Shown: in pieces, positions 232-14,790 of the stretch
Numbering within the stretch: the stretch's first letter is position 1
Layout of the letters: each line of letters opens with the position of its first letter
NCBI GenBank assembly: GCA_002281535.1
Contig: NCGD01000021.1
Coordinates: 1 to 60,905, forward strand
Direction of reading: 5' to 3'
Origin: Sphingomonas sp. 28-63-12
Lineage (GTDB): Bacteria > Pseudomonadota > Alphaproteobacteria > Sphingomonadales > Sphingomonadaceae
DNA: 60,905 nucleotides
Translations under genes and position numbers: made by a program
Notes under the pieces: model-generated
Databases searched by the model: none
The model's input: the letters and a program-made list of their open reading frames with translations, nothing else
What the model was told of the DNA's origin: nothing

Positions 232-726
232 ATGTCCAAGGATGTTACGGTTTCGCGTCGCCAAACTTTGCTCACTCTTGGCTTTGGGGCGGTAGGCGTT
301 GCCAGTGTGCTCAATGGTTCAGCCGCTGTGGGACAAGTGAGTGCGGCAAATCTGCCGATTCAGAAATTTGCGACGGCCAACCCGTCGATCCTCCAGCGGC
401 GGCTGACCGATCAGCGCGCGGTCGCTGCCTTGCAACTGACCAGACGCCTCCCGGCGGCAACGCCGATTGGCAAGATGCTAACACCTTCTGCGGCGGAAGG
501 GCTGACGCCCGGCGCGCGCACGCTGACGAAGGCGGATTTGTCGGCAATGCAGCTTGGCCGTGTGTCGGCGACTGCCGCCAAGCTGACAGTCAAGGATATC
601 GAGAGCGTGCAAAAGGCGTTTGGCCAAATTGGCGGCCTGGCGGCGTCGATTGATGTGTCATGCTGTTGCTGCACGCCGTGTTGCTGTGCCGCTGCGGTTG
701 AGCCCGTGCTCGCGCTTGCTGCCTAA
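232..726 (+). CDS. TOMM/azole RiPP precursor peptide with Tat-like N-terminus
   Basis: Predicted 164-residue precursor. The C-terminal core at residues 143-152 reads SCCCCTPCCC, followed by a 12-residue Ala/Val-rich tail. Ser143, Cys144-147, Thr148 and Cys150-152 are candidates for conversion to thiazoles and (methyl)oxazoles by the YcaO and SagB proteins encoded downstream, much as in streptolysin S-type cores. A GG at 134-135 is a possible leader cleavage site. The leader is very long. Its first 38 residues look like a twin-arginine signal: SRRQTLL at 8-14, a weakly hydrophobic stretch to about 33, and VSA at 36-38 before a possible cleavage point. Two similar segments, LTKADL (98-103) and LTVKDI (118-123), may be leader recognition helices. 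An internal start at Met82 would give a more usual leader but has no visible ribosome site. What is seen: the Cys-rich core and RR motif. Function is inferred from context. Confidence 0.85.
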   Translation: MSKDVTVSRRQTLLTLGFGAVGVASVLNGSAAVGQVSAANLPIQKFATANPSILQRRLTDQRAVAALQLTRRLPAATPIGKMLTPSAAEGLTPGARTLTKADLSAMQLGRVSATAAKLTVKDIESVQKAFGQIGGLAASIDVSCCCCTPCCCAAAVEPVLALAA

Positions 727-740
727 ACGATCAGGGGCGG

Positions 741-757
741 ATTGCCCGGTGGGCGAT
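741..757 (+). terminator. Hairpin after the precursor gene, possible attenuator
   Basis: ATTGCCC (741-747) and GGGCGAT (751-757) form a 7-bp stem, including one G-T pair, around a GGT loop, 14 bases after the precursor stop codon. Only a short, interrupted T run follows, so it is at best a leaky terminator or an RNA-stabilising 3' end. A similar partial terminator after the precursor gene is known in the streptolysin S operon and allows more precursor than enzyme. Confidence 0.4.
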
Positions 758-774
758 CGGCCTTTGATTCCCTG

Positions 775-805
775 CTCCCGCAAGGGAGGCCCCCAGCAAG
801 GGAGG
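775..805 (+). promoter_or_regulatory. Tandem Shine-Dalgarno repeat with GCAA-loop hairpin before the radical SAM gene
   Basis: GCAAGGGAGGC occurs twice (780-790 and 796-806, but with C/G at the first base), 16 bases apart, the second copy being the ribosome site for the GTG at 810. CTCCC at 775-779 pairs with GGGAG at 784-788 around a GCAA tetraloop, or alternatively with GGGAG at 800-804, which would mask the real ribosome site. This could tune translation of the modification operon relative to the precursor. Inference from pairing only. Confidence 0.35.
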
Positions 806-809
806 CAAT

Positions 810-2231
810 GTGGGCGCGCGCGTTCTTCTCATCTGGCCAAATTCGCTCAACGAAGTGCTGGGCTGGGGTGACCTTGGCGCGATCGCCGAGCCACTGGCGC
901 TCGAATATCTCGGTGCTGCCTTGCGTGCCGCCGGTCACGAAGCGATCGTCTTGGATCTGCGCCTGCGCCAGGGCAAGCTGGTCGAAACGCTTGCTTCCTT
1001 CCGTCCCGACCTCGTTGGGGTCACTGCCTTTTCCATGCACGTCCGCCGCGCCCTCGAGATTTGTGACGAGGTAAAGCGGTTTGACCCGGCCATCCTGACA
1101 ATCGTCGGCGGCCACCACGCGACGTTTCTGCCCGATGATTTTTTTGCAGCAGCCGTGGATATAGTCGTTTCGGGCGACGGCACCGAAGCCATTGTCGCGG
1201 CAGCTGACGAGTCGGTTGGCGGGCCGATTGCGCGCGGCGATGGAATTTATCGATGCGACGCCAGGGGTGCATTCGCGGCCACGGGCGGGCCGACTCGCCT
1301 GCTGACCCGCGACGAGCTCGATCTACTCGCACCGCCTGACCGACAGCTGACCGCCGGCGACCGCGAAGGCTACTTCATCGACTGGATGCGCCCTATCGCG
1401 CTGCTGCGGACGTCGGTCGGTTGTCCGTATCGATGCAGCTTTTGTTCGGTGTGGCGCGTGTTCGAGGGCCATTATCATTTGCGCAGCATCGACAAGGTCG
1501 TCGATGAATTGAGAATGATCGAGGAGGAAAATATATTCCTGATCGATGACGAGGCGTTTATTAATGGGAAGCGGATGCTGACGCTGGCGGGGGCGATTGC
1601 GGAGGCGGGCGTCAGGAAGCGTTATTTCACCTATTGCCGGATCGATACGCTTCTGCGCAACCGCGATGCGGTGGCGGCCTGGGCCAAGATCGGGCTCGAC
1701 CGGCTGTTCATCGGTATCGACGCGATCAGCTGGAAGGACCTCGACGAATATAACAAGAAATGCTCGATCGATGACATCGAGCGCGGACTGGCGGCGGCCC
1801 GCGAACTGGGCGTCGGCGTGTTCGCGCAGTTTGTCGTCAACACCGATTACGGCCCCGATGACTTCAAGGCGCTGAGCCGCTTCATCGAACGCAGCGGTAT
1901 CGACTATCCGAGCTTCACCGTGCTGACCCCGCTGCCGGGGACCGACATGCTCGCCAGTTTCGACCAGGTCATCGAAAAACAGGAAAATGGCCGGCCCAAT
2001 TGGGCGCTGTTCGATTGCCAGAATGCGGTTACCGCCACGCGCCTGCCCAAGGCGGAATTCCGGGCGCGCTACCGCGATCTCTACCGCGTCTTCAAGGGAT
2101 CCTACACCCAATATCGCGAGCATGTCGTCGCGGTGCGCGAGGATGTGACCCGCGAATCGGCGCTGGGCCGACCGGTTTCCAATGCCATCACGATCGGGGA
2201 GAGCGCGATGAACCGGACGTCGGTGCTATGA
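810..2231 (+). CDS. B12-binding radical SAM enzyme (RiPP tailoring)
   Basis: A 473-residue protein with an N-terminal cobalamin-binding Rossmann-type domain (about 1-150; VGGHHATFLP at 99-108 and VVSGDGTE at 119-126 are typical of the B12-binding radical SAM class) and a radical SAM core with CxxxCxxC at Cys205, Cys209 and Cys212 (GCPYRCSFC), which should bind the [4Fe-4S] cluster that cleaves S-adenosylmethionine. Members of this class often methylate unactivated carbons, but other chemistry is known. It starts at GTG 810 behind AGGGAGG; the nearby ATG at 808 is out of frame. It shares ATGA with the next gene, so it is the first of the translationally coupled modification genes. The likely substrate is the precursor at 232-726. 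The exact reaction is not shown by the sequence. Confidence 0.85.
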   Translation: MGARVLLIWPNSLNEVLGWGDLGAIAEPLALEYLGAALRAAGHEAIVLDLRLRQGKLVETLASFRPDLVGVTAFSMHVRRALEICDEVKRFDPAILTIVGGHHATFLPDDFFAAAVDIVVSGDGTEAIVAAADESVGGPIARGDGIYRCDARGAFAATGGPTRLLTRDELDLLAPPDRQLTAGDREGYFIDWMRPIALLRTSVGCPYRCSFCSVWRVFEGHYHLRSIDKVVDELRMIEEENIFLIDDEAFINGKRMLTLAGAIAEAGVRKRYFTYCRIDTLLRNRDAVAAWAKIGLDRLFIGIDAISWKDLDEYNKKCSIDDIERGLAAARELGVGVFAQFVVNTDYGPDDFKALSRFIERSGIDYPSFTVLTPLPGTDMLASFDQVIEKQENGRPNWALFDCQNAVTATRLPKAEFRARYRDLYRVFKGSYTQYREHVVAVREDVTRESALGRPVSNAITIGESAMNRTSVL

Positions 2232-3289
2232 GGATCGATCTGGCGCCCGCCGCGGCAGAACCGCTGGTGCTGCTCGACGTGCAGGCCGCACCGTTTGACA
2301 CTGGCTATGTGTTGAAGCGCGGGATCACCCGAGTATTTCTGGAGGCGGCCGGGCTCGAAGCGGTGCTCGCGGTGCTCGCCGACCTAGCGCGGCGCGAGGG
2401 CGGGGCGACCGCGGCCGAGCTGATCGCGGCGGTCGACGAGGGTGATCGCCCGATCATGGAAAGTCTGATCGAGGCACTTAAATCGCGGCGGCTGCTGGTG
2501 TCGGTCGCCGATGGGGCAGATAACAGCGCCGAAGCCGATGATCGCCATGAGAGCGTGTTCTACTGGAATTACGGCACATCACCGGCGGCGGTGCGCGGCA
2601 CGCTGGCGAGCCGGCGACTTTCGGTCATGGGCGTCAATCATATTGGCACCGCGCTGGCGGCGGCGCTGGGTGGCATGGGGTTCGGCACCGTCGAGCTGGT
2701 CGACCACCCGATGCTGCGCAATATCGCGCTGGCCATGGCCGAGGGAAAGGTCGCGCCGATCGACTATGCCGCCTGGGCCGAGGCAGAAGAGATGCCCGAC
2801 TGCCTGATCCTGACCGCCGATTTCGGCGGCCCCGATCTGGCGCGCGAATGGAACGACTTTTGCGTCGCCAATGATCTGAACTTTTACCCGGTGCTGCTCT
2901 GCGATCAGATCGGGATGATCGGGCCGATGGTGCTGCCGGGCCGAAGCGCCTGTTATGAATGCGTCGGGCTGCGCGACCGATCGGCATCGAGCGAGATCAG
3001 CCTGCAGCGGGCGACGGATAACAGCGCTTATTTCGCGCAGCATGCCACTGGCTTTTTGGCGCCGATGGCGCACGCTGCCGCCAATCTGGCCGCGACCGAG
3101 CTGCTCAAATTCTATTCGCAGGCGTTGCCCGGCGGCAATATCGGGCGGCTGATCGAGCTGGATCTGCTCACCCCGTCGCTGGTGACGCGGCGGGTGCTGA
3201 AAGTGCCGCGCTGCCCGGTCTGCGCGACGGCACGCAGCGCACCATCGCCCGCCGCCGAGAGTAATGTCTTCATGCCGGGCAACGATTAA
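2228..3289 (+). CDS. E1/ThiF-like TOMM cyclodehydratase partner (leader-binding)
   Basis: A 353-residue protein of the E1-ubiquitin-activating-like family that partners YcaO enzymes in azoline formation (SagC / cyclodehydratase C-protein type). Residues about 20-95 look like a winged-helix RiPP recognition element that would bind the leader. A Rossmann-like segment (SVMGVNHIGTALA at 132-144) follows. Cys242/Cys245 (CYEC) and Cys329/Cys332 (CPVC) form the structural zinc tetrathiolate typical of this family. The adenylation site of classical E1 enzymes looks degenerate, as expected for these scaffold proteins. It overlaps the radical SAM gene by ATGA and its TAA shares one base with the ATG of the YcaO gene, so these are made together. 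Confidence 0.85.
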   Translation: MRIDLAPAAAEPLVLLDVQAAPFDTGYVLKRGITRVFLEAAGLEAVLAVLADLARREGGATAAELIAAVDEGDRPIMESLIEALKSRRLLVSVADGADNSAEADDRHESVFYWNYGTSPAAVRGTLASRRLSVMGVNHIGTALAAALGGMGFGTVELVDHPMLRNIALAMAEGKVAPIDYAAWAEAEEMPDCLILTADFGGPDLAREWNDFCVANDLNFYPVLLCDQIGMIGPMVLPGRSACYECVGLRDRSASSEISLQRATDNSAYFAQHATGFLAPMAHAAANLAATELLKFYSQALPGGNIGRLIELDLLTPSLVTRRVLKVPRCPVCATARSAPSPAAESNVFMPGND

Positions 3290-4626
3290 TGGCGAGCGTC
3301 GCGCTCCGCTCGCTCGCGCCCTTGGGGCCACTGGGCGCGCATCTGGGCGTGCTGTGCGATCCGCGGATGGGCATCGTCAACGATGTCGCCGAGATTCCGA
3401 TCGAGCCGGGATCGCCGCGCTTTTTCCATTTTGCAGCGCGCGCCTGCAACACTCAGGCCTTTGTTGCACAACGCAATTTCTACCAGACCGGCGGCGCAGC
3501 AGTGACTCGCGAGATTGCGCTCGCCAAGGCAGTGGGCGAGGCGGTCGAGCGTTATTGTGGCGCCATCTATGATCGCGAGACATTGCCGCTGGCGAGCGCG
3601 GCGGCGGCATCCTTTGCGTGCGTCGATCCCGGACAATTCGCTTTGTACAGCGCCGCGCAATATGCCGAGCCGGGCTTTCCCTGGGTGCCGTTCACGCGCG
3701 AGACAATGATCCGTTGGACCCCGGCAACCGACCTGCTGTCCGGGGACATTGTCCATGTGCCGGCGGCGTTTGTCTGGATTCCCTATAGTTTTGTCCGCGG
3801 CAGCAGTGATGCGCCGATTGGCCAGCCAATCTCGACCGGACTGGCATGCCATGGTAGCCGCCCGCGGGCGATCCTGGGCGGTCTCTATGAAGTGGTCGAA
3901 CGCGATTGCTTCACGATCGCCTGGCAAGCCGGGATCGCGCCGCCGCGCATCCGGGCCGAGACGATCCCGGACGCTGCCTATGACATGGTCCGCCGCTTCG
4001 AGGAGACGGGCGACCGTGTCATCCTGCTCGATATCACCACCGACAACGGCATCCCCTGCATCCTAAGTGTGCTGCTGTCCGATGCACCCGAAAGGCCGGC
4101 GCGCGTTTTTGCCGCGTCCGCCGATCTCGATCCGGCGCGCGCCCTTGCCAAGGCGGTCGAGGAACTGGCGCATACCCGTCGCTATGCGCAGCAGATCAGG
4201 CGCCATTTGCCGCCCGTCTCCGACCAGAATGACTGGGAGGATATCGTTACCCAGATGGATCATCTGAACTTCGCCGCCGATCCGGCCAATAGCGCGGTGA
4301 TCGACAGCCTGCTGGGCTCAAACGAACGGCGCAGTTTTGCCGACTATGCCTCGCTTGCCACCAATCCCGACGATGATGTCATCACCGCCGCCAGCCGGAT
4401 CGAAGACACCGGCCACCGGGCCTATGCCGCTGATCTGACCAGCGCCGATATGGCGATGCTGGGCCTGCATGTCTGGCGGGTGATTGTGCCTGGCTATCAC
4501 CCGCTGTTCATGGGCTATCGCATCCGCGCCCTGGGGGGCACGCGGCTGTTCACGGTGCCGCAGCGGCTTGGCCATCCGGGGGTTGCACCCGGGCAGGATC
4601 GCGGCGTGCCGCATCCCTATCCATGA
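3289..4626 (+). CDS. YcaO cyclodehydratase (azoline-forming)
   Basis: A 445-residue YcaO protein. These enzymes use ATP to phosphorylate the amide backbone and cyclise Cys, Ser or Thr side chains into thiazolines or oxazolines. ATP/Mg-binding signatures are visible: GEAVERY at 83-89 (ExxER), STGLA at 182-186 and EVVERD at 201-206. The C-terminus is PHPYP (441-445), the PxPxP ending that marks azoline-forming YcaO proteins and that reaches into the active site. It works with the leader-binding E1-like protein encoded just upstream and overlaps the SagB-type gene by ATGA. Likely substrate residues are in the precursor core SCCCCTPCCC. Domain assignment is secure; the number of rings is unknown. 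Confidence 0.93.
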   Translation: MASVALRSLAPLGPLGAHLGVLCDPRMGIVNDVAEIPIEPGSPRFFHFAARACNTQAFVAQRNFYQTGGAAVTREIALAKAVGEAVERYCGAIYDRETLPLASAAAASFACVDPGQFALYSAAQYAEPGFPWVPFTRETMIRWTPATDLLSGDIVHVPAAFVWIPYSFVRGSSDAPIGQPISTGLACHGSRPRAILGGLYEVVERDCFTIAWQAGIAPPRIRAETIPDAAYDMVRRFEETGDRVILLDITTDNGIPCILSVLLSDAPERPARVFAASADLDPARALAKAVEELAHTRRYAQQIRRHLPPVSDQNDWEDIVTQMDHLNFAADPANSAVIDSLLGSNERRSFADYASLATNPDDDVITAASRIEDTGHRAYAADLTSADMAMLGLHVWRVIVPGYHPLFMGYRIRALGGTRLFTVPQRLGHPGVAPGQDRGVPHPYP

Positions 4627-5498
4627 ACCGTCCGATCCGTCCCTTGTTCGGCGCTGCCCCGCGCCCCGAATTGGGCCCGGTGCTGGATAGCGAATCGATC
4701 GCCTATCGCGCGCTGGTGCCGCCCAGCGACGATGAGTGTTGTTGGGAGACCTATCACGACAATTCGAAGACCGAGCGGCATGATCGCCCGCCGCCCAATG
4801 ACCTTGTCCGGGCGCGGATGGCGGCGCTGGCACCAGCGCTCGCCTATGAAGGCTATCCTACGATCGCCCTGCCACCGCCGCCCGATTTGACGATGCCGAT
4901 CGGCGCCGCAATCCGTGCGCGCGTCACCGGGCGGGACATGGCAAGCTGCGCACTCGACCTCGATCAGGTCTCGGCGCTGCTGTTCAATGCCTATGGCGAG
5001 ACGCGCGACAATGCCGAGACGACGTTTCCGCGCCCGTTCCGCACCGTGCCGTCGGGCGGCGCGCTCTATCCGCTTGACCTTTATCTGCATAGCGCGCGCA
5101 TCGCCGGTGCGCCGCCGGGGCTTTATTATTACGATCCCACGCGCCACCAGCTGCGGTTGGTGCGGCGCGGCGACCAGACTCACAAGCTCAGCGGCTTTTT
5201 CGTCCAACCAGAATTGCCGCTCAATTCGGCAGCCCAGTTGTTCATCACGGCCTTTTTCGAGCGATCGACCTTTAAATATCGTGATCGCGGCTATCGCTTT
5301 GCGTTGCTTGAAGCGGGCCATGTCGCGCAGAATTTCAATCTCGCCGGCACGGCACTGGGGCTCGCCGTGACTTGTGTCGGCGGCTATTTCGATCGCGATG
5401 TCGATGATTTTCTGCAGATAGACGGCATCACCCGCAGCACCATCTATGCGCAGGTTGTTGGCGGTCGTGGCATAGGCGCCGATACGACGCATTGGTGA
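4623..5498 (+). CDS. SagB-type FMN-dependent azoline dehydrogenase
   Basis: A 291-residue nitroreductase-fold protein of the SagB/ThcOx group, which oxidises azolines to aromatic azoles with FMN. Family marks are TVPSGGALYPLDLY at 141-154 (FMN contact), a Lys-Tyr pair at 218-219 (KYRDRGYR; SagB-type enzymes use a Lys/Tyr motif in catalysis) and the helix LLEAGHVAQNFNLAGTALGL at 228-247. Its presence predicts aromatic thiazole or oxazole rings in the product. It overlaps the YcaO gene by ATGA and the next gene by GTGA. Confidence 0.9.
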   Translation: MNRPIRPLFGAAPRPELGPVLDSESIAYRALVPPSDDECCWETYHDNSKTERHDRPPPNDLVRARMAALAPALAYEGYPTIALPPPPDLTMPIGAAIRARVTGRDMASCALDLDQVSALLFNAYGETRDNAETTFPRPFRTVPSGGALYPLDLYLHSARIAGAPPGLYYYDPTRHQLRLVRRGDQTHKLSGFFVQPELPLNSAAQLFITAFFERSTFKYRDRGYRFALLEAGHVAQNFNLAGTALGLAVTCVGGYFDRDVDDFLQIDGITRSTIYAQVVGGRGIGADTTHW

Positions 5499-7483
5499 CG
5501 GGGATGACCATTCGATCCCCGCCCATGCGACCGGGCCCGATATTCCGCGTGGATCTGGCCATGGGGGCGTGGTCACCGGGCCATGCCGCCGGCGAGCTTG
5601 CCGCCCAATTGGGCATCGCCTTGCCCGAGCCGGCGCATGTCGACGCCGCCGAAATCAGCCGCAATGTCGATCGCGAAGCGCGGGGCGACGGTACCTTGCT
5701 GACCGCCTATCATCAGGCGCTGTCGATTGCCGACGCGCTGCCCGATGACCCGCGCATTGTGGTTGTGCGACCGCTTCATGCACTTCCGATCCGGTCCGAC
5801 AACCGTGCGCTGCTGCGCTATCTGCTGCGGCTCGGCATCGCCGTGCGATTCGCGGGCGGTCGATCGCCATCGCCGCCAGCTGCGCTGCCGCCGTTGCTGC
5901 AACTCTATCCCGGGCTGGTGCCGGCGCCGGTTGTTGCGGCCTTGGGGATCGCGCCGGACCATCCCGCGCTGCAATCGGCGGGGCCGGCGCATTATACGAT
6001 CGCGCCGGGTGCGCGGACAATCGATCCGCGCTGCGTGCCGGCGCTGATCGACCAGCTCGCTGCCTATGAACATGGCGATCCCCGGTTGTTTGCCTATTGC
6101 CAGTGCCTGGGTACCGCGCTGTTCGTCGATGCGCCGGCACTGGCGGGCTATGCGCAGGCCGCCGTCCAAGCCTCGGCCGATCTCGCGCTGGCACTGGCCA
6201 AGCGCGCGCGTGCCTGCGCCCGGACCCCGATCGACGCAGCGGCGACCGAGCTGCAGCTGCAGGGCATCCGAATTTTCCTGCACCAGTTTGCCGAGGCTGC
6301 CGCCGCACCCGAGCCGTCGCCGCGCTTGCCCGCGGCCTTGCGCGGTGAACTGTCGGTGATGCGCGGCTGGGGCAAGGTGATGATCGGGGATGTCGACGCT
6401 GCCGAACGCTGTTTTGCCGAGACTGGGCCAGCGCGTGACGCGGCAACGGCGCTCTATCACCGCAACATCTTCGCGTTCGCCCGGTTTCGCCATGGTGACC
6501 TGGATGGTGCGCGGGCGATCGAGCGGGAGATCGAAGGTGCACTGGCAAGCGACTCTGATCCCGATCCGCAGCTCCACTTCGTCAACGCGATCAACCTGGC
6601 CCGGCTCAGCCGCGCGGCTGGTGATGACCAAGGCTATTGCGATTATCTGCGGCGCGCTTTTGCGACCACCGACAATGTGCGCAGCGCGAGCGAGATCGTC
6701 CAGCTCAACCTGCTCCGGGCGCAAACGCTCGATCGCGGCGATCCCGATCAGGCGCGGCGGTGCCGGTTGCGGGCGGCGCTGGCCTGGCTCGCATCCGAGC
6801 CGGCCGAGGCGATCAGCGTGCGGGCGATCCGGGTCGCCATCGATCCTGGCGCTGCCCATCCCCGGACCCTCGACAGGCAGATCGCCGAGATGCTGTTGAC
6901 GGCGCTGGCAGCGGCCTGGCCAGCGGTAACGCCGCTGGTGCTGGACACCGCGCCGCATGTTGCGCTGAGCGACGCTGCCGACGGGCTTGTCGTCGAGCAA
7001 ATCGGCGCAGCGGAGGGGGTTTGCCTGCTCTGGTCACCGATGCGGCAGCGCCGCCTGCCGCGCGCACCGGCAACCGACGGGCTGGCGGCGCTGGCCTTTG
7101 CGATCATCGCTGCCGAAGTCGATCTGCCGGCATCCCCATCGGCCGGGACCTGGATCATCGATACAGTGACGGGGGCGGATGTCCGCGCCAGCCGGGTCGA
7201 TTCGGCGGCGGCGGCGTGGCGATACGGGCTGGAGCAAGGCACGGCCGCGCCGATTGTCGTGCGAGCCGGCCCCGCCGTCCGCCGGATCGAGACACGCGGC
7301 GGTGGTGATGTTGTCCATTTCAAGCGCCATTTGCCGCCGCGCCGCTTGAGCGAGGCCGAGAGGGGGGTGGTGTCAGCCGTGGCGAGGTGCGGTACGATTG
7401 CCGTCGATCGGATCGAGCGGCCCGATATTGTGCGGGCGCTGGTGGCGGCGCGGGTGCTGGGGCTCGGCAGCGATGTTGCATAA
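5495..7483 (+). CDS. Large cluster protein of unknown function (helical-repeat-like)
   Basis: A 662-residue protein that I do not recognise. The start is uncertain: GTG 5495 overlaps the SagB stop as GTGA, matching the style of the operon; ATG 5504 and TTG 5492 are alternatives. The first 140 residues contain an alternating region (RIVVVRPLHALP, ALLRYLLRLGIAVRF) that resembles a small alpha/beta domain. Residues about 180-460 are Ala/Leu/Arg-rich helices that resemble TPR-like repeats (for example DVDAAERCF, DLDGARAIEREIEGAL). The last 60 residues (LSEAERGVVSAVARCG onwards, then DIVRALVAARVLGL) could be a winged-helix module. No membrane segment or catalytic motif is evident. Its place inside the overlapping operon argues that it belongs to the pathway, perhaps as a scaffold or recognition protein. 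Confidence 0.7.
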   Translation: MTGMTIRSPPMRPGPIFRVDLAMGAWSPGHAAGELAAQLGIALPEPAHVDAAEISRNVDREARGDGTLLTAYHQALSIADALPDDPRIVVVRPLHALPIRSDNRALLRYLLRLGIAVRFAGGRSPSPPAALPPLLQLYPGLVPAPVVAALGIAPDHPALQSAGPAHYTIAPGARTIDPRCVPALIDQLAAYEHGDPRLFAYCQCLGTALFVDAPALAGYAQAAVQASADLALALAKRARACARTPIDAAATELQLQGIRIFLHQFAEAAAAPEPSPRLPAALRGELSVMRGWGKVMIGDVDAAERCFAETGPARDAATALYHRNIFAFARFRHGDLDGARAIEREIEGALASDSDPDPQLHFVNAINLARLSRAAGDDQGYCDYLRRAFATTDNVRSASEIVQLNLLRAQTLDRGDPDQARRCRLRAALAWLASEPAEAISVRAIRVAIDPGAAHPRTLDRQIAEMLLTALAAAWPAVTPLVLDTAPHVALSDAADGLVVEQIGAAEGVCLLWSPMRQRRLPRAPATDGLAALAFAIIAAEVDLPASPSAGTWIIDTVTGADVRASRVDSAAAAWRYGLEQGTAAPIVVRAGPAVRRIETRGGGDVVHFKRHLPPRRLSEAERGVVSAVARCGTIAVDRIERPDIVRALVAARVLGLGSDVA

Positions 7484-8363
7484 GGGCTGGTACCAGATTG
7501 CTTTTGCGCGCGATCTCAGCGCGGGGCTGAACGGCGCGGCGATTGGCACGCGGCCGCTCGCCCTGGTGCGCGATGGGGACCGTATTCGCGCCTTTGAGGC
7601 GGTGTGCCCGCATCGTGGTGCCAATCTTTGCCGGGGGGGCACGCTGATCGGCGAGGCGATCCGCTGCCCCTTTCACGGGCTGAGCATCGGCCTTGGATCG
7701 GCGCGCGCCGGCCTGGGTGTTGCCGAATATCCGTGCCTGTCGATCGGCGGGTTGGTGTTCGTGCGCGCGGCGAGCGGTGCAGCGGGCGATCTGCCGGCAC
7801 GGCTGGCGGCGCTGGATGCCACCGCTTTCTTCGTGCCGGGCTTTGAGCTGGTGATTGGTGCCCCGGCCGAGCTGGTGATCGAAAATGCCTTTGACGGGCT
7901 CCATTTCAGGATCGTCCATGCGATCGGCAACCAACCCGATCTGCGAATCGTGGCGGCAGGGGGTAGCTTTGCAGTCGAAGGCGAATTTCTGTTGCCGCCA
8001 TCGCCCTGGCAGCAGGGTGCCGCGGGCCAATCGCATGTCGCCATTCCCTATCGCGCGACCGCTTATAGCCCGACCCTGGTGATCGCCGAGATGGGCGGAG
8101 CAAACCCCTATATGATGATCACGGCGACGGTGCCGGCCGGGCCTCGCCAGTGCGTCGTTCGGCTGTCGCTGGTGTTGCCGCCGGGCGACAATGGCGCGCC
8201 GCCCGATGCGGCAGCGTGTCGCTATCTGCTCGATGGCGCGCGCCGGGGGCTGATGGAGGACAAGCCGATCTGGGAAGCGATGGTCGACGATCCGCCCTTC
8301 GCACCGGTGGCAGGCGATGCCGGCGTGACGGGCTTTCGCGCCTTTTGCGCGGGGATGCGTTGA
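7473..8363 (+). CDS. Rieske non-heme iron oxygenase-like tailoring enzyme
   Basis: A 296-residue single-subunit Rieske oxygenase. The [2Fe-2S] ligands are Cys45/His47 (CPHRG) and Cys65/His68 (CPFHG). The mononuclear iron motif is Asp141, His144 and His149 (FDGLHFRIVHA), with a likely bridging and third carboxylate ligand near MEDKPIWEA towards the C-terminus. The layout resembles the KshA/Neverland branch of monooxygenases. It starts at ATG 7473 and overlaps the upstream gene by 11 bases; the longer reading frame upstream is not needed. It would hydroxylate, desaturate or oxidatively rearrange the peptide product. It needs electrons from a reductase that is not encoded in the operon; the FMN reductase at 9181-9771 is of the wrong type for direct transfer but is close by. 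Rieske enzymes are rare partners of YcaO enzymes. Confidence 0.85.
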   Translation: MLHKGWYQIAFARDLSAGLNGAAIGTRPLALVRDGDRIRAFEAVCPHRGANLCRGGTLIGEAIRCPFHGLSIGLGSARAGLGVAEYPCLSIGGLVFVRAASGAAGDLPARLAALDATAFFVPGFELVIGAPAELVIENAFDGLHFRIVHAIGNQPDLRIVAAGGSFAVEGEFLLPPSPWQQGAAGQSHVAIPYRATAYSPTLVIAEMGGANPYMMITATVPAGPRQCVVRLSLVLPPGDNGAPPDAAACRYLLDGARRGLMEDKPIWEAMVDDPPFAPVAGDAGVTGFRAFCAGMR

Positions 8364-9187
8364 GCTTGCCCGATACGGTCTTCGACATCGCCACGCGCGA
8401 CGGGCCGATCAAGCTCCACCGCCCCGCTGCCGGCGCGGGACCGCGCTTGCTCTGGGTGCATGGCTATACGCTCGATTCGCGGCTCTGGGCGCCCTTGTGG
8501 CGTGCATTGCCGGGCTGGGACCATATCGGCATCGATCTGCCCGGCCATGGCGGCAGCCGGGCGATCACGCCGGCCGATACGATCGCGCATTTTGCGGCGG
8601 CGGTGATCGAGGTCGCCGATCGGCTCGAGGTCGACGATCTGATCGGGTTGTCGTTCGGGGGCACGGTGTGTCTCGAGGCGGCAGGGCAGGCGCCGTCGCG
8701 GTTCCGGCGGCTGATCCTGAGCGCGCCGGCGCTGCCCGGCGGGCCCGAGGATCAGGACGCGGCCGACTGCAATCAGGAATTGCGCCGCCTGGCGCGCGAC
8801 CGCGGCATCGGGCCGTGGCTTGCCGAACGCTGGCTGCAGGTGCCGCCGGCGATCTTTGCCGGGGCGAAGCGCGATTCTGGGCTGTTCGCGCAGATCGCCG
8901 CAACCGTCGGCGCGCATCGCTGGGACGAGCTGTTCTGCCCGGGCTTTGCCCCGCGCGAAACCGGGCTGGACAAGCGGCTGACGCACGTCACCGCGCTGGT
9001 GCTGCTGATCCTGGGCGATGACGATATCGCCAGCTTTGCGCGGACTGCCGAATTGCTCCGGCGGCGGCTGCCGCACGCGACGATCGCCTTTGTCGCCGAT
9101 GCGGGGCATCTGGCGCCGCTCGAACGCCCGGCGGCGGTGGCGCGGCTGGTTGCCGATCACCTCGCCGCCGGCGAGCGGGGTCAATAA
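8360..9187 (+). CDS. Alpha/beta hydrolase of the RiPP cluster
   Basis: A 275-residue alpha/beta hydrolase. Seen are the oxyanion-hole region LLWVHGYTLDSRLW (30-43), DLPGHGGS (59-66), the nucleophile elbow GLSFGG with Ser98, an acid in LGDDDI and the C-terminal catalytic His in DAGHLAPLE. The start is taken as TTG 8360, which shares TTGA with the Rieske stop, in line with the other overlaps; TTG 8366 is an alternative. It could be an esterase, thioesterase-like enzyme or peptidase acting on the modified peptide, or confer self-protection. It is the last gene of the co-directional operon and its end overlaps the convergent FMN reductase gene by 7 bases. Confidence 0.85.
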   Translation: MSLPDTVFDIATRDGPIKLHRPAAGAGPRLLWVHGYTLDSRLWAPLWRALPGWDHIGIDLPGHGGSRAITPADTIAHFAAAVIEVADRLEVDDLIGLSFGGTVCLEAAGQAPSRFRRLILSAPALPGGPEDQDAADCNQELRRLARDRGIGPWLAERWLQVPPAIFAGAKRDSGLFAQIAATVGAHRWDELFCPGFAPRETGLDKRLTHVTALVLLILGDDDIASFARTAELLRRRLPHATIAFVADAGHLAPLERPAAVARLVADHLAAGERGQ

Positions 9188-9771
9188 GGCGGCGTCTGTC
9201 GCGCGCGCTGGGCGATCGCGGCGTCGGTCCACCAGGCGAGATCATCGGCAAAGCGCGGAAAGGCATGCGCCAGCGCAGTGCCGCCGTCGCCGATCGGCTT
9301 GGCCTCGGCATCGAGCGCCTGGCCGACCTGGCCGACGACCAAGGTGCTCGAGATGACCACCATCCCCATTTCCGAGAGCGTCCCGTGCCACGGCACGCTG
9401 CCGCGCGCGCCGCCCAGCCGGCCGGCCGAATAGCTGGCAATCGCCGCTGGTCGCCAGAACCATTCCTCCAGGAAATGATCGGTGAGGTTCTTCAGCCCCG
9501 GCTGCATGCCCCAATTATATTCGCCGGTCACGAACACAAAGGCGTCGGCGGCGCGGATCTGCGCGGCGAGATCGGCCATCGCGGCGGGTGCGGTGCCGGC
9601 GGGATATTCCTTGTACATCCGGTCGAGCATCGGCAGCCCGATCGCCTGGGCATCGACCAGGGTGGCCTCGGCGCCGCGCCCGTTAAGGCCGTTGACGATG
9701 AAATCGGCGAGGCGAATGCCCATCCGGTCAATGCGGTACGACCCATAGAGGACGAGGATTTTGTGCGGCAC
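9181..9771 (-). CDS. NADPH-dependent FMN reductase family protein
   Basis: A 196-residue flavodoxin-fold reductase. LVLYGSYRIDRMG at the N-terminus is the FMN phosphate loop and TGEYNWGMQPGLKN the flavin-contact loop typical of the NADPH-dependent FMN/quinone reductase family. It faces the biosynthetic operon, ending inside the hydrolase gene, so it is transcribed separately from the divergent region it shares with rmuC. It may be an ordinary chromosomal stress reductase at the cluster border, or it may supply reduced flavin. The sequence does not decide between these. Confidence 0.85.
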   Translation of the reverse strand: MPHKILVLYGSYRIDRMGIRLADFIVNGLNGRGAEATLVDAQAIGLPMLDRMYKEYPAGTAPAAMADLAAQIRAADAFVFVTGEYNWGMQPGLKNLTDHFLEEWFWRPAAIASYSAGRLGGARGSVPWHGTLSEMGMVVISSTLVVGQVGQALDAEAKPIGDGGTALAHAFPRFADDLAWWTDAAIAQRARQTPPY

Positions 9772-9938
9772 GGCCGGTCCCTTTCTTGCACGGAGTTTCA
9801 GGCCGCCAAGCTATATCGGTACGGCGGCGTCAGCGGCCATCAAATTTTGGCATGGGTTTCGGCTGCGGACACCACCTGCTTGCCGCTGGCAGACCCAGCC
9901 GCTAGGTTCGTGCTTCGTTCCCATGGAAGGCCAAACAT
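9772..9938. promoter_or_regulatory. Divergent intergenic region, FMN reductase / rmuC
   Basis: This 167-base stretch separates two divergent genes and should hold both promoters. GGAAGG at 9925-9930 is the ribosome site of rmuC. I see no convincing -35/-10 pair or operator. Confidence 0.35.
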
Positions 9939-11336
9939 TTGGACCCGCTTGTCATCATCTTCATTCTGGCGTCGCTGGTCATCGGCCTTGGCCTTGGCTG
10001 GCTATTGGGCGGGCGCAGCACCGCCCAGGCGCGGGCCGAGCGCGACGCGCAGGCCGAGGCTTTTCGCCGCGCGATCACCGATCTCGCCGGTGCCGAAGAG
10101 CGCGCCAAGGGCGTGGCCAGCCTGGCTGCCACGCTCGAGCAGGTCCGGGACGAGCGCGATATCGCGCGTACCGATCTGGCGACGCTCAAGGCGCAGGCGG
10201 GTGCTTTTGAGCTGCGGTTGGCCGAACTGCGCGAGGCCAAAGATGTAATGGCTGCGCAATTTGCCGATGTTTCCAACCGGCTGCTGAGTGAGGCGCAGGA
10301 AAATTTCCTGAAGCGCGCCGATGAGCGCTTCAAGCAATCCGAGGAAACGGCGGGGCAGAATTTGCGCTCGATGCTCCAGCCGGTCAGCGATCGGCTGAGT
10401 CTTTATGAGGAAACCGTCAAAAAGGTCGAGACTGACCGGACCAGTGCCTTCGATCAGCTCAAGGGCCAATTGGAGGGCCTGCGGATCGGGCAGGAGAAGG
10501 TCTCAAGCGAGGCGGCCAAACTGGTCAATTCGCTCCGCAATGCCCCCAAATCGCGCGGCCGCTGGGGGGAGCAACAGCTGAAGAATGTCCTGGAGACCTG
10601 TGGCCTGTCCGAACATACCGATTTCCAGACAGAGGTCAGCGTCGCCGACGGCGATGACGCCGGCGGGCGGCTGCGCCCCGATGCGATCGTCCGCGTGCCG
10701 GGCGGCCGGGCGCTGGTGATCGACGCCAAGGTCTCGCTCAATGCCTATCAGGACGCGTTCGGTGCGGTTGACGAGGAGGAGCGGCACAAGGGGCTGGCGC
10801 TCCACGCCGCGTCGATGCGCGCGCATGTCAACGGGCTCGGCAACAAGGCCTATTGGAGCCAGTTCGCTGATGCCCCCGATTACGTGATCATGTTCGTGCC
10901 CGGCGAACATTTCCTGTCAGCGGCGCTGGAGCATGATCCGACGCTATGGGATTTTGCCTTTGAAAAGCGCGTGCTGCTGGCGACGCCGACCAATTTGATC
11001 GCGATTGCGCGCACGGTGGATGCGGTGTGGCGGCAGGAGAAAATGGCCAAGCAGGCGCAGGAAATCGGCATGCTCGGCAAGGAGCTGTACGAACGCCTCG
11101 CCAAGGCGGCGGGCGATCTGCGCAAGGTTGGCGGCGGGCTGACCAGTGCTGTCAATAATTACAACACCTTTGTCAGCAGCTTCGAAAGCCGCGCGCTGGT
11201 CACCGCGCGGAAGTTCCGCGACCTCAGCATCGACACCGGCCCGCGCGAGATCGAGGAAGTGCCGCCGGTGGAGGCACTGGCACGATATGGCGATGGGATG
11301 CCGCTGATCGAGGGTTTGGGGGAGGCGGTGGAGTAG
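9939..11336 (+). CDS. rmuC: DNA recombination protein RmuC
   Basis: A 465-residue RmuC protein. It has one N-terminal membrane segment (about 4-24, ending in GWLLGG), a long Ala/Glu/Arg-rich coiled coil to about residue 130 and the RmuC nuclease-like domain after that (KSRGRWGEQQLKNVLETCGL is characteristic, as is VIDAKVSLNAY). RmuC limits recombination at inverted repeats and has recently been tied to DNA-protein crosslink handling. It starts at TTG 9939, 8 bases after GGAAGG. It appears to be a monocistronic housekeeping gene that marks the edge of the biosynthetic island. Confidence 0.92.
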   Translation: MDPLVIIFILASLVIGLGLGWLLGGRSTAQARAERDAQAEAFRRAITDLAGAEERAKGVASLAATLEQVRDERDIARTDLATLKAQAGAFELRLAELREAKDVMAAQFADVSNRLLSEAQENFLKRADERFKQSEETAGQNLRSMLQPVSDRLSLYEETVKKVETDRTSAFDQLKGQLEGLRIGQEKVSSEAAKLVNSLRNAPKSRGRWGEQQLKNVLETCGLSEHTDFQTEVSVADGDDAGGRLRPDAIVRVPGGRALVIDAKVSLNAYQDAFGAVDEEERHKGLALHAASMRAHVNGLGNKAYWSQFADAPDYVIMFVPGEHFLSAALEHDPTLWDFAFEKRVLLATPTNLIAIARTVDAVWRQEKMAKQAQEIGMLGKELYERLAKAAGDLRKVGGGLTSAVNNYNTFVSSFESRALVTARKFRDLSIDTGPREIEEVPPVEALARYGDGMPLIEGLGEAVE

Positions 11337-11646
11337 GGGGGCTTAAGGGTAGTATTTGCAGTGATGGAATGCGCTCAGACTTGGTTTGATGGTCAAAACT
11401 GGAGCGGCGCGACGACGCGCTTGGCCCTCTACGGTCCTGCCGCTGATCGATGTTCAAGACATATCCACGTTCGACTGTATTTTGCGTAATAGCGGGCAGT
11501 TATATGAGGTCCGGAAGCGACCGCCATATCACGATCGCGCCGGTATTTTCGCGGTTCACAGTAGTCGCCTCGGATATTTTTGCAGATAACTTCGCGGCGA
11601 AGCTCGGAATTTGGCTTCTTTCAAAACGGTACCATCAAGAAAAATA
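11337..11646. other. 310-base gap, no gene recognised
   Basis: This lies between rmuC and the 3' end of the acyltransferase gene. Base composition shifts from GC-rich to AT-rich across it. Two short overlapping frames of under 70 codons on the plus strand have no recognisable features and no good ribosome sites. I see no clear terminator. It may be debris at the border of an acquired segment. Confidence 0.5.
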
Positions 11647-12693
11647 TCAATGATTACCACTCCCATAATGAGTACGTAAAAATTTACGCACTGGTTTGTC
11701 ATAATAAATCACAATTAAGTAAGATAGAATTATTGTTATAATAACTATAATTGACAGAGCCAGAGGATTTCCTGAAATTTTTAAAAACCTGTGGGCTGCA
11801 CCGTTTAATCCCATTATTATAGACGTGTGAGCAAGATATAGGGGATATGAAATTGTTCCACTCAGCGTTGCAATTGATGGAACTAAAGGTTTGCTCCCTG
11901 CAGCAAAAAGTAATAATAAAGGGAATAGCACGATTATAATTATTGGATCATAGGCGATGGACCACGCCGAGCCATATGGCAGGGCAACAAAGGTGGCAAT
12001 TAATATGGGCGCTACCAAATAGCGACGTCCTCCATCGGCCAAAAATCCGGCAGAATGAATTCTATAAATTAAAACACCTGCAAAAAAGCCAAACATAACT
12101 CTGGCGATGCCCCATAAAAAGTTATCAGGCGACCATCCAACATTGAGACCATCATAATTTATCGTAGCGATAATTATGCCGCATACAGATAATATCAAAA
12201 TAAATATCAATCGCTTGTTTGATAAATACGGCGAAATAAATGCAAAAATAAGATTAACCAATATCTCCCAAAAAAGCGACCATGATGGGGGGTTGACTAT
12301 AAAGATATTACTATTTGGAATATCAAGATCCCAAAGAGATGGAGCAGGAAATATTCCTGCCACAATATCGAGAATAAGCCAATTTGCCCCGGTTCTACTA
12401 AGTGCGAAACTATTCAATGCGAGTTCTGCGCCGCCCACTATGCTGAAAAGAATCAACAACGGGTGGAGTCTAATAATTCGATCACGCGCAAAAAGTTTAA
12501 AATAGCCGGGTAATGTTAAATAATACCCATACGCGTGTGCAATCACGAACCCGCTTAACATGAAGAAAAAATCAACGGCTAAATAGGCATGGCCAAAAAT
12601 TGGTATATGAGCGTGGAATAACATTACCGAAATTGCAGCTATCCCTCGTAAACCATCAAGCTCCACATAGTGTTTTTCACCACGGTTCGGCAT
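11647..12693 (-). CDS. Acyltransferase family 3 (OafA/NodX-like) membrane protein
   Basis: A 348-residue integral membrane acyltransferase. The N-terminal GLRGIAAISVMLFHAHIP carries the family His, and ARDRIIRLHPLLIL is the conserved Arg/His loop after the next helices; about ten hydrophobic segments follow. These enzymes O-acylate sugars of lipopolysaccharide, exopolysaccharide or glycolipids. It is visibly AT-rich, with many Ile, Asn and Tyr codons and A/T-ending wobble bases, unlike all its neighbours, which suggests recent acquisition. The flanks (11.34-11.65 and 12.69-12.78 kb) are AT-rich too. No mobile-element gene is nearby. The sugar acceptor cannot be told. Confidence 0.88.
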   Translation of the reverse strand: MPNRGEKHYVELDGLRGIAAISVMLFHAHIPIFGHAYLAVDFFFMLSGFVIAHAYGYYLTLPGYFKLFARDRIIRLHPLLILFSIVGGAELALNSFALSRTGANWLILDIVAGIFPAPSLWDLDIPNSNIFIVNPPSWSLFWEILVNLIFAFISPYLSNKRLIFILILSVCGIIIATINYDGLNVGWSPDNFLWGIARVMFGFFAGVLIYRIHSAGFLADGGRRYLVAPILIATFVALPYGSAWSIAYDPIIIIVLFPLLLLFAAGSKPLVPSIATLSGTISYPLYLAHTSIIMGLNGAAHRFLKISGNPLALSIIVIITIILSYLIVIYYDKPVRKFLRTHYGSGNH

Positions 12694-12887
12694 GATTGCG
12701 TCCTATTCTGTAAAATATTTGATAAATAAAATTGTAAATTTATAAATCTGAAATTTACTGATTTATGATTGTCCGAAATGGCGCGAGGTACGTTTGCGAT
12801 TCATTTACTCACACGCGCGCCAGGATCAACAGGTGCGCCCTTTCCCCAGCATCTTCTACGCCATGACCGGCCAAGCCACCGCGGCCT

Positions 12888-13601
12888 TCAGGCTAATAGG
12901 CTGAATGAATTTCCGAAATTGTGGAGCAAGATCGGGAGAAGCACGCTTTGTGTCCGCAGCCTTAGCCAGACGGCAATCAGCGCTGGCAGCGCGGTCAGCG
13001 CCATGGTCATTGGGTCGAACGAGAAATGGCCATCCGCAAACCCGAACGCATGCGCCATGCCGAACAACAGGCATGAAAGCAGCGCTCCCCAACTCCAGTC
13101 GACACCCAGGAAACGCTGTCTGCCGGTAAATGCCCGGTCCAGCGCAAACAGCAGGATGCCGCGATAAAAGGGCTCCTCTTCAAATCCCGGCATTGTCAGC
13201 TGAAAGGCGGCATCCTCGATCGTCGATTTGCCGCCGGGAAAGACCAGCGCGATAGCGATGAAGAAGCCGCAATAAAGCGCTGCAACCGGCAGGGCTCCGC
13301 GCAGACTGCCCTGTTGCTGATCAAGACTGAGACCGGATCGGCGCCAGCCAAATGCGGGCAGTGCTGCAACAGCGAGGGTCGCGCCCAGCGCGAGGAGCTT
13401 GCCCTCCCAATTCCAGCTTCCCCCGATCAGGTTGGGCATCAGCCCATAGAGGCGAGTGAGGAGAGCGTCATTGATTGCCACGAGTACCGATGCGATGACC
13501 AGCCAGCGGGCAGCGAAGTGTTGGCGATCAGCCAACCCGATCGCCAATCCGAGCAACAGCAGGAGCGCCAGCGTTGCTCCCAATCCGATTATTCCGTTCA
13601 C
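12888..13601 (-). CDS. CPBP family intramembrane glutamic protease
   Basis: A 237-residue multi-spanning protein of the CPBP/Rce1 (Abi) family. Motif 1 is FEEEPFYRGILL (EExxxR), motif 2 is FGMAHAFGF and motif 3 is LLHNFGNS, together forming the membrane glutamic-protease site. The start is taken as GTG 13601, preceded by GAAGG at 7 bases; a much longer frame upstream would overlap the AraC gene and lacks family sequence. The AraC-type gene ends 58 bases upstream in the same direction, so they may form an operon. Some family members mature or give immunity to peptide bacteriocins; a link to the RiPP locus 4 kb away is only speculative. Confidence 0.85.
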   Translation of the reverse strand: MNGIIGLGATLALLLLLGLAIGLADRQHFAARWLVIASVLVAINDALLTRLYGLMPNLIGGSWNWEGKLLALGATLAVAALPAFGWRRSGLSLDQQQGSLRGALPVAALYCGFFIAIALVFPGGKSTIEDAAFQLTMPGFEEEPFYRGILLFALDRAFTGRQRFLGVDWSWGALLSCLLFGMAHAFGFADGHFSFDPMTMALTALPALIAVWLRLRTQSVLLPILLHNFGNSFSLLA

Positions 13602-13659
13602 ATCGATGCCTTCATTCTGTCGAGCCGAAGACGTATCGCGGTAATGCCGCTGCGCCACC

Positions 13660-14790
13660 TCAGAACCCGGCTTTTCGCTCCTCAAAACCCGGCAATGGCG
13701 GCAATTGTGCTGGACGATCGCCTTTCGGGTCGGCTTGCAACGCGGCGGCCCGGTATTGTGTTGGACTACATCCTTCGATCGCTCGGAAGACGCGATTGAA
13801 ACTCGCCAGCGAGGCGAAGCCGCTATCAAGCGCAATGGCGATGAGCTTATCATCGGCGCGGCGCGGATCGCGCAATAATCGGCGCGATTCTGCCAGACGG
13901 TGATGGTTCAGGAAGCTCCGAAAATGATCAAAGCCCAGCCCATGGTTGATCAACAGGCGGACCGCCCGTTCCGGGGCGCCCATGCGCGCGACAAAGGTTG
14001 CGAATGTCAGATCGGGGTCCAGAAAGAGACGTTGGGTGCCGATCAATTCGCTCAGGCGGCGGTGAAGATCATCATCCTGTTGGTTGGCGGCCAGTGGTGC
14101 TGCGCTTCCCGCTGCATGTTCGGCAAGGTCGCGAAAGCTCGGCAATTCGGGACGAACGGTCAGTAGCTTGTCCGCCAGCCATACGGCAAAGCCAAGAATC
14201 ATGACGTTCTGGGTAATCGCAAATGCCGGCGGCCGCCAAGCGACGCCGAACGCCGCATCGGCGGCAAGATCAACGAACAACATGCCGCCCAGCAAGACGG
14301 CGACCATGACACGCGAATCGTGTCGCTGCTGGATCAGGTCGCCAGCGCGTTCGGCAATCAAGCGCCAGACCAAATGGCCGACAATTGCGAAGCCCATCGC
14401 CATGAGCAGCCGTGACAATCCGCGATCAGCGATCGTCGGACCGAACAGGCCGCGGTCCGCCGAGGCGATCGTCGCCCAAGCCAGACCACCCGCCAGGACA
14501 CCGCCTATCACCCTGAAGCGGCTATCAAAGCAGGAAAGGGAGAACCACCAGAGGAAGATAACGGTATAGCCGCTCACCAGATGGGCGACGCTACCCAGCA
14601 GGCCGACGGGGCGCAGCAAGGCACCGGCGCTGTTGCCGATCACGAAGCCCGACAGGCAGATCGCCAGCGGCAAGAACAGGAGGGCGGCAAATGTGATCGA
14701 CCGTGAGCGATGCACCAGAAGCCAAGCAAGCAGCAGAATCGTCGTCATCGCCGCAACCCTGACCGCTGCATCGAGTTGATCGAATGCCAT
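13660..14790 (-). CDS. Membrane-anchored AraC-family transcriptional regulator
   Basis: A 376-residue protein with six or seven hydrophobic segments in the first 215 residues (for example TTILLLAWLLV, ITFAALLFLPLAICLSGFVI) and a C-terminal AraC/XylS double helix-turn-helix (about 255-350; DHFRSFLNHHRLAESRRLL and GFASLASFNRVFRAIEGCSP are typical of the two motifs). It probably senses a signal at the membrane. It lies just upstream of the CPBP protease gene in the same orientation, so that gene is a candidate target or co-transcribed partner. Starts at ATG 14790; the ligand is unknown. Confidence 0.88.
   Translation of the reverse strand: MAFDQLDAAVRVAAMTTILLLAWLLVHRSRSITFAALLFLPLAICLSGFVIGNSAGALLRPVGLLGSVAHLVSGYTVIFLWWFSLSCFDSRFRVIGGVLAGGLAWATIASADRGLFGPTIADRGLSRLLMAMGFAIVGHLVWRLIAERAGDLIQQRHDSRVMVAVLLGGMLFVDLAADAAFGVAWRPPAFAITQNVMILGFAVWLADKLLTVRPELPSFRDLAEHAAGSAAPLAANQQDDDLHRRLSELIGTQRLFLDPDLTFATFVARMGAPERAVRLLINHGLGFDHFRSFLNHHRLAESRRLLRDPRRADDKLIAIALDSGFASLASFNRVFRAIEGCSPTQYRAAALQADPKGDRPAQLPPLPGFEERKAGF

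Follow-up and report, generated by a model that had tools for sequence, protein, structure and literature searches.

A predicted cysteine-run azole peptide operon with B12 radical SAM, Rieske oxygenase and hydrolase genes in Sphingomonas sp. 28-63-12

Introduction

The nearest described precedent for the locus treated here, an eight-gene operon at positions 232–9187 of a 60,905-base stretch of Sphingomonas sp. 28-63-12 contig NCGD01000021.1 (the whole stretch is hereafter the window), is the pathway to nostatin A, an azole proteusin of Nostoc. In the sections of the paper that describe it, azoles are formed by a cyclodehydratase and an oxidase, and the class B cobalamin radical S-adenosylmethionine (SAM) enzyme NstA is proposed to alkylate the proline of the core motif TTPSC (PMC11583998). 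We predict comparable azole formation for the window, whereas the nitrile-hydratase-like leader, LanM-like dehydratase and PoyD-like epimerase described for nostatin A belong to that pathway and not to the window (PMC11583998), and the words “Rieske” and “oxygenase” do not occur in the text of the nostatin A paper. The families of thiazole/oxazole-modified microcins (TOMMs) treated in the relevant sections of Cox et al. 2015 (PMC4603692) resemble the operon in their C, D and B proteins and Cys-rich precursors; “Rieske” is absent from the main text, neither the section on mobilisin nor that on gallolytisin contains the gene set of the window, and the precursor studied here, at 164 amino acids (aa), exceeds the 150-aa limit given there. 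Both families were set aside: the name mobilisin suggested Tistrella mobilis, but its section covers Mobiluncus/Rhodococcus clusters with precursors not found automatically, and gallolytisin has a Cys4-X-Cys4 core and occurs in Streptococcus gallolyticus and others (PMC4603692).

No cluster with the whole gene set is described in the literature searched, which comprised open-licence PMC papers and left most subscription papers outside the scope. Searches there for Rieske enzymes alongside precursors of ribosomally synthesized and post-translationally modified peptides (RiPPs) returned only citations of the mupirocin Rieske oxygenase/epoxide hydrolase cascade (e.g., in passages of PMC7024214), which pairs a Rieske enzyme with a hydrolase in biosynthesis but does not act on a ribosomal peptide. 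RiPPs, Rieske oxygenases and YcaO in combination returned nothing, the core strings had no match, and “twin-arginine” did not occur with RiPP terms among the matches listed. The initial annotation of this DNA, made from the sequence alone, knew of no described pathway with such a set in an alphaproteobacterium; this held within the literature searched. The set is not confined to one strain, as a second genome carries it without one of the genes.

We propose that the operon directs the synthesis of a secreted, thiazole-rich and further tailored peptide by means of E1-like, YcaO and SagB proteins, a tetratricopeptide repeat (TPR) protein, a radical SAM enzyme, a Rieske enzyme and a hydrolase, and that the product has a role in bacterial competition, a reading that we consider probable. 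The parts list, the gene order and their conservation in a second genome can be read from the sequence directly. For the “heavily tailored azole peptide” of the initial annotation, the domain models and the same operon order in the second genome support the type of pathway, and we infer each tailoring step and the role of the product.

Results

Gene content and organization of the operon

All eight genes are encoded on the + strand and are tightly packed, according to open reading frame (ORF) calls and reading of the sequence. The ORFs and the Pfam/NCBIfam models agreed with the run of a Cys-rich precursor and seven further genes that the initial annotation had described at 232–9187, and with the enzyme types that it had named. 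In order, the genes are:

232..726, + strand: precursor, 164 aa, with a twin-arginine translocation (Tat)-like N-terminus SRRQTLLTLGFGAVGVASVLNGSAAVG, a region aligning with the other TOMM leaders of this family LTVKDIESVQKAF and the core SIDVSCCCCTPCCCAAAVEPVLALAA; GGAGGAG closely precedes ATG 232
810..2231, + strand: B12-binding radical SAM protein with the motif GCPYRCSFC, a probable C-methyltransferase (domain models; homologues beside YcaO elsewhere)
2228..3289, + strand: E1-like leader-binding YcaO partner (C protein), whose C-terminal half contains two CxxC pairs (TIGR03882; MccB chains among the matches)
3289..4626, + strand: YcaO cyclodehydratase (D protein), ending PHPYP (TIGR03604; TruD and LynD among the matches)
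4623..5498, + strand: SagB-family flavin mononucleotide (FMN) azoline dehydrogenase (TIGR03605; McbC among the matches)
5492..7483, + strand: TPR-solenoid protein, 663 aa, starting at TTG 5492, GTG 5495 or ATG 5504 (predicted fold and homologues)
7473..8363, + strand: Rieske oxygenase with the cluster motif CPHRG...CPFHG and NAFDGLHFRIVH (Rieske Pfam domain; homologue in locus L004)
8360..9187, + strand: alpha/beta hydrolase with the motifs GLSFGG and GHL (Abhydrolase_1; likely start TTG 8360)

Joins mainly by overlaps of 1 to 11 bases had been claimed, and this was borne out: the radical SAM and E1-like genes overlap by 4 bases (2228–2231), the E1-like and YcaO genes by 1 base (3289), YcaO and SagB by 4 bases (4623–4626) and the TPR and Rieske genes by 11 bases (7473–7483), while two further overlaps depend on the choice of start, 7 bases between SagB and the TPR gene with TTG 5492 (a short gap with ATG 5504) and 4 bases between the Rieske and hydrolase genes if the latter starts at TTG 8360. 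The start at 8150 in the ORF list is a mechanical call for the hydrolase. Between the end of the precursor and the start of the radical SAM gene (GTG 810) lie 83 bases.

The core of the precursor is SCCCCTPCCC. A six-frame search of the 60,905 bases for at least three cysteines, one to three other residues and again at least three cysteines matched CCCCTPCCC alone. The precursor has no Pfam or NCBIfam match above any cut-off, and no nitrile-hydratase-like (proteusin, NHLP) or Nif11 leader match up to E 1 in either collection. Domain models recognized most of its neighbors: the radical SAM protein matched B12-binding (82.2 bits) and Radical_SAM (65.8 bits) in Pfam; the E1-like protein matched ThiF (42.7 bits), the TOMM leader-binding model TIGR03882 (50.4 bits, cut-off 36.9) and, below cut-off, the SagC model TIGR03603 (58.7 bits vs 187.65); the YcaO protein, whose PHPYP terminus confirms the PxPxP end reported earlier, matched Pfam YcaO (227.3 bits) and the SagD model TIGR03604 (289.3 bits, cut-off 219.25); and SagB matched TIGR03605 (139.5 bits, cut-off 78.4), with KYxxxGYRF kept in all five aligned sequences. 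The Rieske domain PF00355 scored 50.0 bits (cut-off 20.3), and the hydrolase matched Abhydrolase_1 with 65.4 bits. We take NAFDGLHFRIVH to be a mononuclear-iron-like motif, with D141, H144 and H149 as presumed ligands, and CPHRG...CPFHG to be the cluster motif.

The gene that the initial annotation left as unknown encodes the TPR-solenoid protein, which has no Pfam or NCBIfam match up to E 1. Its AlphaFold2 model (mean predicted local distance difference test score, pLDDT, 79.3; predicted template modelling score 0.82) was compared with the PDB mainly over model residues 177–531. The protein is possibly a scaffold or a peptide binder.

A SagD-type YcaO, a leader-binding E1-like protein, a SagB and an adjacent precursor with a Cys/Ser/Thr-rich core together place the operon among the linear azol(in)e peptide (TOMM) clusters. 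Assignment to the thiopeptides was rejected, with the precursor reaching only 15 of 29 bits against the thiazolyl peptide model NF033399 and no LanB-type protein among ten scanned proteins.

The same gene set in a second genome

Co-occurrence of YcaO and Rieske genes, which the initial annotation had suggested as a check for homologous clusters, was seen in one further locus, in a Paracoccaceae metagenome-assembled genome (MAG) (contig JAJUJF010000062.1; locus L004), where two precursors, radical SAM, E1, YcaO, SagB, Rieske and hydrolase genes follow one another in the order of the window, without a TPR gene. This locus and the window were the only two of 21 compared (window included; ten genes, tblastn, E 1e-5) to contain the Rieske-hydrolase pair. 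Between them, identities are 59% for radical SAM, 37% for E1, 54% for YcaO, 48% for SagB and 44% for the Rieske protein, in which the Cys/His residues of the first motif and N138, D141, H144 and H149 are kept; the hydrolases are about 41–43% identical and both keep GLSFGG and GHL. L004 also differs from the window in what follows its hydrolase, namely genes for an M36 fungalysin-type peptidase with a P-domain and an asparagine-synthase-like protein (L004:8465-12864), possibly a leader protease and a further tailoring enzyme.

Two other loci, both from one acidobacterial family, share the radical SAM-E1-YcaO part of the operon: L016, from a Solibacteraceae MAG, and L032, a 4,455-base contig of genome G1240 from a Solibacteraceae search. 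The radical SAM protein of L032 is 56% identical to that of the window, and that of L016 matches in two pieces (47 and 62%). The precursor of L032 precedes its radical SAM gene, as in the window and L004, and the one found in L016 lies after the first SagB. Neither Rieske nor hydrolase genes were seen in L016 or in L032, the contig of which is cut inside YcaO. In L016 two azole gene sets stand consecutively on one contig (L016:3169-11746), the first with frame-broken radical SAM and YcaO genes.

Whole-genome sampling, at E limits from 1e-30 to 1e-100 that differed between samples, recovered the radical SAM gene in 1 of 397 genomes of the window’s family and 1 of 398 of its phylum sample (the window’s own in both), 1 of 295 in the family of G837 (G837 itself), 2 of 200 in the family of G843 (G843 itself and G1240), 1 of 2 in the genus of G1240 (G1240 itself) and two of a selection of 12, namely the genomes that contain L004 and L016. 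Relatives in the plasmid collection comprised 4 records for radical SAM (best identity 37%) and 25 for Rieske (all below 60%); the viral contigs scanned yielded none for either alignment. This radical SAM type is rare and scattered among the genomes sampled, which suggests horizontal transfer.

The azole half is widespread

A YcaO scan of genome contigs yielded 16 loci from cyanobacteria, Pseudomonadota, Bacteroidota, Balneolota and Acidobacteriota; at E 1e-60, 5 of 385 genomes of the class sample were positive, including the window’s own and three of one genus, and the plasmid collection held three records, one from Tistrella and two from Lactiplantibacillus (32%). E1 and YcaO were present in all 21 loci, SagB in 20 (the L032 contig ends first) and the TPR gene in 18, the exceptions being L004 and the short contigs L016 and L032. 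A papain-like C70/C39-type protease gene directly follows the TPR gene in 12 of the 21 loci, of which L028 and L030 belong to the same genus, but not in the window; the call rests on a Pfam match for L005 and L012 and on similarity for the others, and L003 has a papain-like protease elsewhere. Clusters of the E1-YcaO-SagB-TPR type, from Janthinobacterium, Burkholderia, Pandoraea, Brenneria, Cyclobacterium, Tistrella and others, encode CCCxCTPxCCC-like cores behind a leader related to that of the window, with YcaO proteins 43–48% and SagB proteins 40–48% identical to its own (leaving out the broken YcaO of L017), and lack close radical SAM, Rieske or hydrolase genes at the thresholds used. Several B12 radical SAM genes about 29% identical to that of the window lie beyond the azole cluster of Burkholderia sp. 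SRS-46 (L005:16891-21312); as evidence they were set aside, being too distant and about 2.5 kb beyond the TPR gene of that locus. We found no named product of this family in the literature searched. By sequence comparison, the azole half of the operon is part of a widespread family in Pseudomonadota and Bacteroidota, and the novelty lies in the added radical SAM, Rieske and hydrolase genes.

YcaO kinship and a C-terminal precursor motif

In a YcaO tree of 20 rows, the four from radical SAM clusters (the window, L004, L032 and one open piece of L016) fell on one side of a single branch (support 76/65, 80% of bootstrap trees), and none of 500 label shuffles grouped them as closely as observed. 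A leader region is common to the precursors across the loci, and in most of them TP stands between two cysteine runs. Those of radical SAM clusters also end in AVEPV, SVTHPV, SVTRPV, SVTEPV or SLTQPF and a few more residues; [AS][VL].{1,2}P[VF] after the last cysteine matched 5 of 5 such precursors and 0 of 19 others (with a near-match, SVIRPT, in L003), a comparison in which the pattern was chosen after inspection and the rows are related, so that the Fisher value is not a probability. Because the pattern is confined to the precursors of radical SAM clusters among those compared, the extra enzymes may act on this tail. Another candidate target of the radical SAM enzyme is the proline that separates the two cysteine runs, by analogy with the proline that the cobalamin radical SAM enzyme of nostatin A is proposed to alkylate; this central proline is absent from the cores of L002 and both L029 precursors, and is also present in most cores without a radical SAM gene.

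A possible Tat export signal

Under our own rule for Tat-like starts (RR no later than residue 36, with an uncharged hydrophobic stretch behind it), 2 of 22 precursors were positive, that of the window and one of L029. The start of the latter, SRRALLIGAAGLTGIAATLVAKPAVAES, is the clearer case, whereas in the window a threonine stands where we take the Tat consensus to have a hydrophobic residue; the window precursor reached 10 of 48.45 bits against the formate_TAT model. TatC is encoded in the genome of the window. No ABC (ATP-binding cassette) transporter was found among the window proteins scanned with Pfam (232–11333, further frames, and 13 frames at 14.8–22.3 kb) or in the long frames, a subset of the ORFs, scanned beside the L004 and L029 clusters; the region upstream of the operon is cut by the contig end, and a transporter may lie there. 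In L003, an ABC transporter lies about 4.5 kb past the TPR gene. L029 (398-1079, - strand, genome G648) has two adjacent cysteine-run precursors, with CCCCC and CCCCCC, of which the longer bears the Tat-like start; within a few kb is a pair of transposase genes.

Weighing the proposed pathway

Several observations weigh against the tailored, exported peptide that we propose. The Rieske-hydrolase pair is rare among the loci compared, and a hydrolase gene alone is unremarkable, because alpha/beta hydrolases are common in RiPP clusters (as the section on them in PMC10783134 has it). The catalytic domain model KshA_C scored 23.2 bits against a cut-off of 23.3, AlphaFold gave a model of the Rieske enzyme with a mean pLDDT of 48.9, too poor for use, and no gene for a ferredoxin or reductase to serve this enzyme occurs in the operon. 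The Tat rule was also passed by 6 of 303 other mechanical ORFs (at least 150 aa, from the window and the loci), including ORFs whose motifs resemble those of genuine Tat proteins, and neither precursor of L004 has a Tat-like start, so that the route is not common to both full clusters. The grouping of the YcaO proteins is only moderately supported, with L016 represented by one piece, and the tail motif, besides its post hoc choice, is counted for an L016 precursor that stands between two azole gene sets.

Four other explanations were weighed. The cysteine-rich core, with an export signal of a type also used by periplasmic proteins, would suit a peptide that binds metals through thiol or azole ligands and serves metal handling and not antibiosis, which we think unlikely: YcaO and SagB should use up the thiols, and no metal transporter was among the neighboring proteins scanned with Pfam. 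The azole operon might also be real and the Rieske and hydrolase genes a catabolic pair for an unrelated small molecule, brought to its 3′ end by chance. The hydrolase does resemble enol-lactonases and esterases, the Rieske protein matches ferredoxin, demethylase and steroid hydroxylase chains, and 19 of the 21 loci lack the two genes; however, the 11-base and 4-base overlaps, the second dependent on start choice, tie the pair into the operon, and in L004, where the TPR gene is absent, the pair directly follows SagB, which leaves this explanation quite improbable in our view.

A streptolysin-S-type cytolysin, as a cysteine-run core with SagB/C/D-like enzymes might suggest, would find an echo in the very weak TIGR03602 match of L002, a Prochloron relative (9.4 of 35 bits); the window precursor has no match to that model up to E 1, it carries a long leader of the family common to the compared TOMM precursors, and we judge this identity very unlikely. 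Least probable to us is that the radical SAM protein, for which HpnR is the best named model (235 bits), is a relative of the hopanoid C-3 methylase that methylates a lipid or cofactor and not the peptide, since that score is far under the HpnR cut-off of 650, on which grounds we rejected the equivalog itself, and the gene lies between precursor and E1 genes in the window, L004 and L032.

Operon boundaries and neighborhood

Base 1 of the window is base 1 of the contig, and the sequence ends 231 bases upstream of the precursor; positions 1–230, used as a query for contig-end overlaps in the same assembly, matched only themselves. We place the end of the operon at 9187 because a gene for an FMN_red flavoprotein follows directly on the opposite strand (9181–9771, - strand; Pfam). 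A scan for promoters and terminators was near chance (4 found vs 2.0 expected; 8 vs 6.7), and the GC content of the operon, 56–70% in 1-kb steps, is not clearly foreign. Other recognized neighbors (e.g., RmuC, an AraC-type regulator, a SpoU methylase, RapZ, HPr kinase, a two-component pair and phosphoenolpyruvate carboxykinase; Pfam) are housekeeping or regulatory. For RmuC, the plasmid collection gave a Sphingomonas protein as the best match (64.7%), in line with the source organism.

Near the operon, an Acyl_transf_3 gene (11647–12693, - strand) stands in a patch of low GC (51% and 43% in the 1-kb steps of 11001–13000, vs 64% before and 60% after) that is likely acquired DNA. An Rce1-like CAAX-type membrane protease is encoded at 12888–13853 (- strand). 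We take this protease type to be linked to SagE of streptolysin S clusters; its presence here is probably coincidental, because it lies 3.7 kb past the operon and on the other strand.

Discussion

In the pathway that we propose, the E1-like protein would bind the leader and pass the core to YcaO, which would convert cysteines of SCCCCTPCCC (up to seven, and perhaps Ser/Thr too) to azolines for oxidation to azoles by SagB, while the TPR protein may act as the scaffold on which the long precursor, or the set of enzymes, is held. C-methylation of an unactivated carbon would fall to the B12 radical SAM enzyme, with the C-terminal AVEPV segment as its likeliest site and the proline between the runs as the alternative; the Rieske enzyme, with a reductase presumably encoded elsewhere, would hydroxylate or desaturate the core, and the hydrolase may act on the oxidized product or release the product. 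The finished precursor would probably be exported with its leader attached, perhaps via the Tat pathway, and trimmed outside, and competition with other bacteria is the likely role. The most specific version, a polythiazole C-methylated at the x-V-x-P-V patch, oxidized by the Rieske enzyme with the hydrolase, and exported by Tat on its own signal without a dedicated transporter, we put forward tentatively and regard as doubtful.

The comparison provides concrete candidate target residues in the x-V-x-P-V patch and at the central proline. It also provides a candidate route of export for an azole peptide beside which no transporter gene is apparent. With its TPR protein and often a papain-like protease, the azole half forms a large family of its own in Pseudomonadota, Bacteroidota and a cyanobacterium. 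If the specific version is true, this class of peptides would gain its first Rieske step and its first case of Tat export within the literature searched, and Rieske chemistry would join the tailoring of ribosomal peptides, with a defined operon in which to study it.

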